From a virus, in the IMG/VR virus record IMGVR_UViG_3300044816_000092, positions 1 through 30,125 of that record: a DNA stretch of 30,125 nucleotides; one strand, written 5' to 3'. Shown piece by piece: positions 888-3,403 of the stretch. A model generated the notes under the pieces. The model was not told the origin of the DNA. It was given only the letters and a program-made list of their open reading frames with translations, and did no database searches. A program made the translations under genes and the position numbers. The stretch's first letter is position 1; every line of letters begins with the position of its first letter.

Positions 888-1220
888 TTACACTTTGTTT
901 ATTTCTTTTGAGGCTTCTCTCACAATATCTTTCCAGTTAGGGAACATCTTTTTCATTAAGTTTATATTAGTTTTTACATTGTCTTCAGATGAGGGAGGGG
1001 AGAAGTCTAACTCTCTCGGATGGCATCCCAGAATATCTGCAATGCTTACAATCTTACGAGGCTGTATACTATGTCCGCTTTCTATTCTATTTAAAGCAGA
1101 CGGCGACATATTTGCTTTATAAGCAAGCTCTCTTTGATTATATCCTAACCTCTGTCTAAGCATTTTTATTTTTTGTCCTGGAAATTTAAATTGTTCACTA
1201 CATAAGACTTTATCTTTCAT
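888..1220 (-). CDS. XRE-family helix-turn-helix repressor, probable CI analogue
   Basis: The 110-aa product has a classic XRE/Cro-CI helix-turn-helix domain at about residues 16-73, including the segments LRQRLGYNQRELA and MSPSALNRIESG. The remaining ~35 residues form a short tail with no peptidase-like domain, so it is much shorter than lambda CI and has no visible self-cleavage site. The ATG at 1220 follows CGGAG on the minus strand. It is divergent from a YdaS/Cro-like gene across a 249-base control region, the standard layout of a lysogeny switch. A role as maintenance repressor is inferred from fold and position. Induction would need an antirepressor or another route than RecA-stimulated cleavage. 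Confidence 0.85.
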   Translation of the reverse strand: MKDKVLCSEQFKFPGQKIKMLRQRLGYNQRELAYKANMSPSALNRIESGHSIQPRKIVSIADILGCHPRELDFSPPSSEDNVKTNINLMKKMFPNWKDIVREASKEINKV

Positions 1221-1469: not shown

Positions 1470-1853
1470 ATGTCGAATTTAAGTGTTAATGATTTTCCTG
1501 AATCAAAAAAACCTTTAGTTTCAGCGATTATAGAAGCTGGCGGAATAACGGCTTTTTCAAAGCTTATAGGGGTTTCTCATGCAGTTGTTAGCTCATGGAT
1601 TCATGTTTTAACAAAAGGAATCCCGGCAGAAAGATGTATAGAAATAGAAAATATAACGAAAGGAGAGATTAAAAGGCAAGACCTTAGGCCAGATGTTTTT
1701 TCTAGTTTTATCAGTAAAAAAGAATCAACTACTGAAGATAGAATAAAAGAAGCATCTAAAATCCTTAATGAAATATGTAAGGAAATTTATGTGGACAGGG
1801 GAAGAATAAATCTCAGAAAGAAGTCAAAAATAAATAATAAGAGTATGCCTTAA
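1470..1853 (+). CDS. YdaS/Cro-like transcriptional regulator
   Basis: The 127-aa product has an N-terminal helix-turn-helix of the YdaS/Cro type at about residues 16-75: AGGITAFSKLIGVSHAVVSSWI, then a KGIPAERCIEIE segment and LRPDVF. The family includes phage Cro-like repressors and the YdaS part of YdaST modules. The basic C-terminal ~45 residues are of unknown role. GAGG lies six bases before the ATG. It is the first gene of the rightward early operon, immediately behind the promoter at 1392-1420, and its stop overlaps the next start (TAATG). A Cro-like role is inferred from position and fold. Confidence 0.82.
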   Translation: MSNLSVNDFPESKKPLVSAIIEAGGITAFSKLIGVSHAVVSSWIHVLTKGIPAERCIEIENITKGEIKRQDLRPDVFSSFISKKESTTEDRIKEASKILNEICKEIYVDRGRINLRKKSKINNKSMP

Positions 1854-2659
1854 TGGCCGCTATTCCTTATATGCAATTTTACATTGCGGATTACATGGCA
1901 GACACCCAAGGATTGACCACTATTGAGCATGGTGCATATTTACTTTTAATCATGAATTATTATCAAACTGGCAAAAGTTTGGTTGATAATGATCAAGTTT
2001 TGGCTCGGTTTTGTCGCACTTCTGTTCAAAAATGGTTGAGGTTGAAACCAATGCTTAAAAACTTTTTTTCAATTGAGGGGGGTAAATGGTATCACAAAAG
2101 GATAGAGGAAGACTTCAATAGAATCGCAGAAAAGTCATTAAAATCGCGGGATGCGGCGCTGTCAAGATGGTCAAAAGAACGTGAAAACTCAACTAATGAA
2201 AAATATGCGAACGCAATGCGAACGCAATGCGAACGCAATGCGAGTGCAATGCCAGAAGAGAAGAGAAGAGAAGAGAAGAGAAGAGAAGAGATAAACATTA
2301 TGTCGGGCAAGCCCGACGACACATCTTTTTTTCCAAAATCTGAACCAGACACAAAAACCATCCGAAATCGTGAACTTAAAAATCAAGCTCGGGAGGTTCT
2401 TGAATTTCTCAATTTCAAAACCGGGAAAAAATTTCGTCTCGAGTCGGACGTGAATTTGAAAATGGTCATGGCAAGACTTTCGTCTGGCGCGCCGGTCGGG
2501 AAGTGCAAACAAATAATCGCTAAAAAAACTCGAGAGTGGAAAGACGACGAAGTCATGTCTAAGTATTTAAGACCAGCAACACTTTTCAACGCAACCAAGT
2601 TTGAGCAATATCTTGGAGAGTTGGTCATAATTCCTGATGAGGTGAAAAATGTACGCTAA
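1853..2659 (+). CDS. DUF1376 phage replication protein with DnaD-like C-terminal domain
   Basis: Residues 1 to about 90 match the DUF1376 (YdaU-type) domain: the start has YMQFYIADYMADT, then TIEHGAYLLLIMNYY. Residues about 175-255 resemble the phage C-terminal domain known as Phg_2220_C, with VLEFLNFKTGKKFR and a terminal YLRPATLFN motif. Between them is a charged linker (about residues 118-146). It is encoded by tandem DNA repeats of 11 bp and 5 bp, so its codons change frame from copy to copy. The family is linked to initiation of phage replication. Its place right after the Cro-like gene fits an initiator, as with lambda O or P22 gene 18. The linker DNA could be the origin itself. The protein has no recognisable helicase motif. 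Confidence 0.8.
   Translation: MAAIPYMQFYIADYMADTQGLTTIEHGAYLLLIMNYYQTGKSLVDNDQVLARFCRTSVQKWLRLKPMLKNFFSIEGGKWYHKRIEEDFNRIAEKSLKSRDAALSRWSKERENSTNEKYANAMRTQCERNASAMPEEKRREEKRREEINIMSGKPDDTSFFPKSEPDTKTIRNRELKNQAREVLEFLNFKTGKKFRLESDVNLKMVMARLSSGAPVGKCKQIIAKKTREWKDDEVMSKYLRPATLFNATKFEQYLGELVIIPDEVKNVR
2206..2249 (+). repeat. Four tandem 11-bp iteron-like repeats
   Basis: TGCGAACGCAA occurs at 2206-2216, 2217-2227 and 2228-2238, and a fourth copy with two changes (TGCGAGTGCAA) at 2239-2249. Eleven is about one helical turn and is not a multiple of three, so the encoded residues do not repeat. That points to selection or expansion at DNA level. Location inside a replication gene is like the lambda origin. 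Confidence 0.75.
2254..2290 (+). repeat. Polypurine (AGAAG)n tract
   Basis: Seven AGAAG units plus two bases follow the iterons directly, giving 37 uninterrupted purines. The tract is in frame with the DUF1376 gene and encodes a run of E, K and R residues. It is followed by A/T-rich ATAAACATTA and then a GTCGGGC/GCCCGAC hairpin at 2302-2317. It is prone to slippage. Confidence 0.8.
2302..2317. repeat. Perfect GC-rich inverted repeat
   Basis: GTCGGGC (2302-2308) and GCCCGAC (2311-2317) are separated by AA. It is coding sequence of the DUF1376 gene but stands out against the AT-rich background and lies just beyond the iterons and purine tract, so it may be part of an origin. Confidence 0.6.
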
Positions 2660-3219: not shown

Positions 3220-3403
3220 AGATCACATGTTTATTGGTAATTCTTCTGGTCTTTATAAAAAGTGTGAAAAATGTCTTACTGTAAAACATACTTCTAATTT
3301 TAGACAAACTCCTACGGGTAAAGTAGTTTTTAAATCTTGTAAAGAATGTAGAGTAATTTTTAAATCTTGTGAAGGATGTAAAGAATGTAGAGAAAATAAA
3401 TGA
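3206..3403 (+). CDS. Small Cys-rich zinc-finger-like protein, 65 aa
   Basis: The product has CEKC near residue 20, CKEC near residue 47 and CEGC/CKEC close to the end. A short internal duplication is visible: VVFKSCKECR is followed by VIFKSCEGCKECR. The layout C..C..VKHTSNF...G...KSCKEC is like the small zinc domain often found in phage recombination endonuclease and HNH contexts. It overlaps both neighbours (14 bases upstream, ATGA downstream). No nuclease residues are seen. Confidence 0.65.
   Translation: MKEIKDHMFIGNSSGLYKKCEKCLTVKHTSNFRQTPTGKVVFKSCKECRVIFKSCEGCKECRENK

Follow-up and report, generated by a model that had tools for sequence, protein, structure and literature searches.

A putative replication origin within the DUF1376 initiator gene of a phage, built on an 11-bp repeat found in many other viruses

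Background

Very many phages carry DUF1376, a "domain of unknown function". The locus described here raises the question whether repeats lying in the middle of a DUF1376 gene constitute the origin at which the phage starts its own replication. The stretch of DNA analysed, hereafter the window, is the entire IMG/VR virus record IMGVR_UViG_3300044816_000092 of 30,125 bases; its genes include those for a portal of the P22 type and for a large terminase, and a check of the record found no terminal repeats. An initial annotation, made from the letters alone, had proposed a replication origin in the linker of the initiator gene. Our analysis supports this proposal on sequence evidence: with a probability of about 0.87, the linker array is the replication origin of the phage and lies inside the gene that encodes the phage's own initiator. 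If this is true, DUF1376 would be an origin-recognition domain, its cognate sites would be readable from sequence and origins would become predictable in many uncultured phages. In the literature covered, which lay mostly outside subscription journals, we found no paper joining DUF1376 with "origin of replication", nor DUF4373 with replication.

Results

The initiator gene (positions 1853 to 2659, plus strand; Pfam and PHROGs) encodes an N-terminal DUF1376 domain (PF07120), a linker and a C-terminal Phg_2220_C domain (PF09524). PF07120 covers residues 5-87 (E 1e-24) and, with 87.1 bits against a curated cut-off of 30.1, assigns the protein to the DUF1376 family; PF09524 covers residues 182-254 (E 2.1e-22), and PHROGs annotates the protein as "primosomal protein" or "replication initiation protein". 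The proposed DNA-binding domain is encoded at 1865-2170 (plus strand) and reaches to the conserved tail KSxKARxSAxxRW. Directly 5' of the initiator gene, Pfam identified a YdaS/Cro-like regulator (1470-1853, plus strand), as in the racR-ydaS-ydaT-ydaU order of Rac, and further upstream a CI-type HTH repressor on the strand opposite to the initiator (888-1220, minus strand). The gap between these two regulatory genes holds two direct-repeat pairs of 23 and 21 bp (1281-1324 and 1358-1401), which are probable operators. Elsewhere in the window, a 30-bp repeat in 2.2 copies (3318-3383) lies within a small cysteine-rich ORF. Pfam annotation revealed no helicase or helicase loader gene adjoining the initiator, and a direct search of viral contigs returned no close relatives of the protein.

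The iterons, the purine run, the A/T segment and the hairpin described in the initial annotation are all present, in that order, between PF07120 and PF09524. Repeat finding delimited an iteron array of 4.4 copies of ATGCGAACGCA at 11-bp spacing (2205-2252, plus strand). The unit, an imperfect dyad TGCG-AA-CGCA plus A, is exact at 2205-2215, 2216-2226 and 2227-2237, carries two mismatches at 2238-2248 and continues into a partial fifth copy; the four tandem repeats reported earlier were thereby recovered with a start at 2205 instead of 2206, the register being arbitrary. No exact unit was found elsewhere in the record. The array is followed by 7.6 copies of the pentamer AGAAG (2254-2291, plus strand), the proposed strand-opening element; this polypurine tract is indeed there, at a length of 38 and not 37 bases, and no other purine run in the record comes near it, the next having 15. 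The A/T segment TAAACATTAT (2292-2301, plus strand), possibly part of the opening region, and a GC-rich inverted repeat GTCGGGC-AA-GCCCGAC (2302-2317), whose role is doubtful, complete the row. Ranked by stability among 50-bp windows, the iterons belong to the top 1%, and the stretch of 50 bp that begins at 2254 is surpassed in stability by 82%.

Neither period, 11 or 5, is divisible by three. The four units begin in codon phases 1, 0, 2 and 1, and each phase is represented. To these observations we added 500 synonymous-codon shuffles within the gene, which keep the protein and the codon usage. The linker repeat score of 33 compares with an average of 8.5 over the shuffles (p 0.002, the lowest value that 500 of them can give), and no excess of repeats was detected in the N-terminal (p 0.48) or C-terminal part (p 0.84) of the gene. 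Two other features of the window give no support to the origin reading. The hairpin was rejected as evidence since it is unremarkable among the inverted repeats of the record: 57 perfect ones of 7 bases occur there with loops of at most 8, and two of them, this one included, are GC-rich. Cumulative GC skew, which had been put forward as a check, was rejected as well, its sign changes tracking gene direction.

Screening other viruses for the exact 22-base double unit yielded at least 120 viral stretches, against none for the reversed 22-mer used as a control. The 22-mer was also present in six GTDB contigs, from MAGs named Chitinophagaceae, Methylocystaceae, Bacteroidetes, Acidobacteria (two) and Hydrogenedentota. 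Pfam placed DUF1376 in 66 and Lin1244_N in 42 of 120 proteins scanned (119 from loci with the exact 22-mer plus that of the window), and Phg_2220_C in one of them; the DUF1376 and Lin1244_N domains are homologous (hhalign 98.0%, E 2.6e-13). According to local profiles, 124 of the 133 occurrences, distributed over 126 loci, lie inside DUF1376/Lin1244_N ORFs, every one on the coding strand, 121 of them at 1-125 bp past the domain and three within it. The other nine comprise four contig-edge fragments with a matching linker peptide, one distant DUF1376-like ORF recognised by eye (L103) and four occurrences in apparently non-coding DNA (L090, L095 twice, L125). Proteins bearing ATGCGAACGCA are only 16-40% identical to that of the window.

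The conservation resides in the DNA beyond what the protein would need, as the initial annotation had anticipated; it is seen both in the excess over codon shuffles reported below and in frozen synonymous codons. A scan for NANAMRT with all codons allowed returned at least 119 stretches, 68 of which were new loci. Among 125 NANAMRT matches at all loci, including those picked by the exact 22-mer, 91 had exactly the consensus, Thr was encoded by ACG in 125/125 and Arg by CGA in 123/125. Unit starts in RW-type clusters (classes are defined below) were spread over the codon phases as 94/75/34, and the spacing was exactly 11 in 131 and a multiple of 11 in 151 of 172 gaps. In 54 of the 126 loci (L004-L129), a third exact ATGCGAACGCA, in either orientation, was noticed within the 100-260 bp upstream of the linker array, at around 160-230 bp, inside the domain coding sequence, 23 times at exactly -202; the window has no such unit, which is a possible remote site for looping. 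We also observed a DUF1376 clade (L207, L208, L211, L212, L215, L216) in which the linker unit is inverted (TGCGTTCGCAT).

Eight records carry an array in non-coding DNA (L090, L095, L125, L144, L151, L164, L166, L172), and an initiator gene was found in five of them, with DUF1376 in L144, L164 and L172 and Lin1244_N in L151 and L166. None of these five initiators has iterons in its linker. L144, L164 and L172 are near-copies in which five units at 11-bp spacing are followed by 7-base repeats and then TATATA, so together with L151 and L166 they amount to three independent cases. In L164 some 1.5 kb separate the initiator gene from the array, and next to this gene is an ORF judged by eye to encode a RecA/DnaB-like ATPase; in L166 the array sits just beyond the end of the initiator gene, and in L151 the two occupy opposite ends of a 42-kb record that may be linear or circular. 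Such non-coding arrays, paired with array-free initiator linkers, are the strongest sign in these sequences that the DNA itself may function. The arrays of L090 (at 884 and 1052) and L095 (4261, array strand) stand on fragments in which an initiator gene was not found, and in L095 a repeated T-rich tract comes after the array.

To view relatives irrespective of the motif, 352 genes were grouped into 135 clusters at 65% identity, ORFs with N or with fewer than 50 residues past the domain being dropped; 66 of the clusters, termed unselected, had been gathered by the DUF1376 domain alone. Repeats in the linker whose period is not a multiple of three exceeded codon-preserving shuffles (p<0.05) in 41 of these 66 clusters, compared with 4 for the N-terminal and 8 for the C-terminal parts of the same genes. 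We divided the clusters by the residues at the domain end into our own classes RW, GGRP, GKAS and other, a division made with the data already in view, where significant linkers numbered 23/28, 10/12, 4/8 and 4/18, respectively; five of the eight significant C-terminal parts belong to "other". Relatives without any repeats had been named as an observation that would count against an origin here: repeats were significant in the 41 clusters and not significant in the remaining 25, and thus the linker array is not universal. The one fresh test, on a set of 18 clusters not near the first one and obtained with a query from a motif-selected locus, gave 12 significant linkers, no N-terminal and one C-terminal part. 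As a positive control, lambda O was submitted to the shuffle test and scored in its origin region (p 0.001) and not in its flanks (0.33 and 0.70). Among named relatives, the linker was significant in Vibrio phage 1.052.A (0.001), Acinetobacter phage phiAC-1 (0.001), Paracoccus phage Pkon1 (0.004) and plasmid pCT01 (0.009), and not significant in Vibrio phage 1.003.O (0.067), Flavobacterium phage morran9-1 (0.081) and E. coli ydaU (0.098).

The unit differs between clades. Within the 66 unselected clusters, and with iteron types defined after viewing the data, at least two near-exact TGCGAACGCA were present in 13/28 RW clusters versus 0/38 others, at least two AACCCA in 10/12 GGRP versus 1/54 others, and at least two GTTCAA in 6/8 GKAS versus 1/58 others. 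On a tree that excluded the class-defining residues, rests on 90 columns and leaves many forks open, unit types were clustered (23 changes against a shuffled mean of 32.8, a value as low arising in 0/200), with several apparent switches. It had been suggested that repeats would change together with the protein. That clades carry different units agrees with this; co-change itself did not reach significance. When domain tail and iteron type were compared over independent pairs, the direction was (nearly) uniform, with 3-4 pairs on well-supported branches, too few for significance; the domain tail and the iterons are, moreover, physically adjacent.

Directly past the iterons lies a second array of 7-base (AACCANN, CACCAGA, CCCAATA) or 5-base (AAAGG, AAAAG; AGAAG in the window) tandem repeats. 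Periods of 5, 7 and 8 exceeded codon shuffles (p<0.05) in 18 of the 22 unselected RW clusters that have an array, the six of 28 without one falling outside this test, and likewise in 7/12 GGRP and 2/8 GKAS clusters. The 60 bases past the iteron array were richer in A+T than the gene in 80/87 clusters. The T-free coding strand of the second tract was considered as independent evidence and rejected, since codon-preserving shuffles give equally long T-free runs; the strand and base bias of the tract is no greater than the amino acids dictate.

The genes that follow the initiators were surveyed in 134 clusters. Setting aside five located at the edge of a contig and eleven that lack a usable ORF downstream left 118, of which 117 were aligned; one reference, being itself an initiator, was removed. 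The next gene carried DnaB_C in 36/117, and IstB (7), DnaA-like (6), Toprim (6, Toprim_2) and lambda P (3) matches were also obtained, these counts partly overlapping. In named phages the neighbour is a helicase loader (AH02), IstB (1.052.A), DnaB (1.003.O and Pkon1) or a primase (morran9-1). A candidate replicon is plasmid pCT01 (L408), a circular Clostridia phage-plasmid of 36,627 bp that carries genes for terminase, capsid and integrase; the sole initiator-like gene listed in its incomplete gene table encodes a DUF4373 protein and has near-exact iterons.

The AlphaFold model of the DUF1376 domain (pLDDT 92) is winged-helix-like. Foldseek returned no match to it at E<=0.001; in a further structure comparison, the leading hits included winged-helix domains of ORC (Z 6.4), RepA initiators of plasmids (Z 5.6-6.0; chains 4pql, 5kbj, 4pt7 and 4pta, with 4pql at Z 6.0, rmsd 2.9 and 76 aligned residues) and DnaD (Z 5.2-5.3). 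The modelled fold thus fits an initiator winged helix, at Z values below 8 that may reflect a common fold only and lie below proof of kinship.

In several records a DUF1376-HNH nuclease fusion is encoded directly before a normal DUF1376 initiator (L415, 1971-2501; L436, 2504-3010; L036, 178-753; L411/L412, 2501-3073; all on the plus strand). HNH scored above the Pfam cut-off in L415 and L436, and the domains of L036 and L411 are HNH-like by eye. Comparing the nearest kin of the nuclease's DUF1376 domain with the neighbouring origin, the iteron type differs in L411 and L436 and is ambiguous in L415, and in L036 both are of type A; the idea that the nucleases always spare their own origin was therefore not upheld.

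Discussion

What the sequences show is a signal at the level of the DNA. It keeps a constant position in the initiator genes of two homologous families, turns up in each of the three reading frames, has units specific to the clade and a second array next to it, and also occurs outside genes. Were the array to act as an origin, the DUF1376 domain would bind the 11-bp iterons, one per helical turn, all on one side of the helix. The bound assembly would then strain and open the adjacent short-repeat tract, in the window the 38 bases of AGAAG with the A/T segment. The C-terminal domain would recruit the helicase, in many relatives through the helicase or loader encoded next door.

The same repeats might instead be merely an operator, at which the initiator or a regulator controls its own operon while replication starts elsewhere. 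Repeated dyad-like sites beside a DNA-binding protein fit control as well as replication, and the upstream third unit in 54/126 loci fits it too. We nevertheless regard this as unlikely, because the arrays lie past the domain within the gene or about 1.5 kb off in non-coding DNA, a second short-repeat array comes next, the neighbours are replicative helicases or loaders, and the layout is that of the lambda and SPP1 origins. Slippage in an unconstrained, disordered linker, tolerated without any function of the DNA, would account for the low complexity of the linker, for a second array that varies among phages and for a poverty in T explained by the residues present. This explanation is already disfavoured, and we give it very little credence: slippage would not keep one unit across proteins as divergent as those found here, the same 22 bases recur in at least 120 stretches versus none for the control, synonymous sites are frozen and arrays occur in non-coding DNA too.

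Just as improbable is that the conserved DNA between the domains is a recombination joint promoting swaps of C-terminal halves. It is true that the C-terminal parts vary widely behind the same array, Phg_2220_C being confined to one of 120 proteins; however, neither the phasing at 11 bp nor the existence of clade-specific units, of a second array and of non-coding arrays would follow from it, and such a joint may be a by-product. The origin reading thus remains the one that we prefer.

A broader scheme can be drawn from it, which we offer as speculation and which, with all its parts taken jointly, is rather unlikely to be correct. DUF1376/Lin1244_N initiators and a near-invariant 11-bp iteron would form a portable origin code common to phages of distant hosts, in which the array shifts between linker and non-coding DNA, so that a phage or satellite with the array could be fired by the initiator of another phage. 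The 7- or 5-base array would be a new strand-opening element read by the complex, and the DUF1376-HNH fusions would be weapons that cut the origins of rivals, comparable to Odn against PLE. The origin-directed nuclease Odn of phage ICP1, which the fusions resemble, cuts the PLE origin. The shared unit makes cross-recognition among unrelated phages, and its use by satellites or origin-cutting nucleases, directly testable.

Among known systems, the closest layout is that of lambda. According to passages of PMC5043065 and PMC7466680, lambda carries iterons and a strand-asymmetric A+T-rich region inside gene O, and in lambda ori and its Stx-phage relatives the iterons and then this region stand midway through the initiator gene, behind repressor/cro. 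In the window, iterons and a putative opening region follow each other in a like position. The comparison drawn in the initial annotation holds for the layout, and lambda O passes the same shuffle test, but kinship of the proteins was not detected (hhalign probability 0.2% between the DUF1376 domain and a single lambda O sequence, a weak test). Lambda also differs in having inverted-repeat iterons of 18-19 bp, whereas those of the window are 11-bp direct units, and the second element of DUF1376 phages is, unlike that of lambda, a 5- or 7-base tandem array. In the Bacillus phage SPP1, as described in parts of PMC6316719, oriL lies in gene 38 with direct repeats and an AT-rich opening element, and a similarly built second origin, oriR, lies about 13 kb away. 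In a comparable way, the array of DUF1376/Lin1244_N phages can also sit outside the initiator gene, although SPP1 has other units and another opening element than the window.

Some RepA_N plasmids have their origin inside repA. For the RepA_N plasmids pSK41 and pTZ2162 and the RepA of the satellite PLE, sections of PMC7145576 and PMC8263062 describe an N-terminal winged helix together with direct-repeat iterons, semi-palindromic in form, that converge on an A tract, and the PLE RepA domain covaries with its origin. RepA structures rank among the best fold matches of the DUF1376 domain, at Z values that may reflect a common fold only; RepA_N itself (PF06970) was absent from the Pfam matches of the window protein up to E 1.

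In the Rac prophage of E. coli K-12 the genes run racR-ydaS-ydaT-ydaU-ydaV, ydaU being the DUF1376 gene, and the window likewise has a repressor, a YdaS-like gene and a DUF1376 gene. Rac possesses an active origin, oriJ (passages of PMC3945230), and the literature covered yielded no text placing it within ydaU. The linker of ydaU differs in its GTTCAA-type sites, and the gene was rejected as a positive case given the repeat test above. The system of the window would work like the two phage origins, those of lambda and SPP1.
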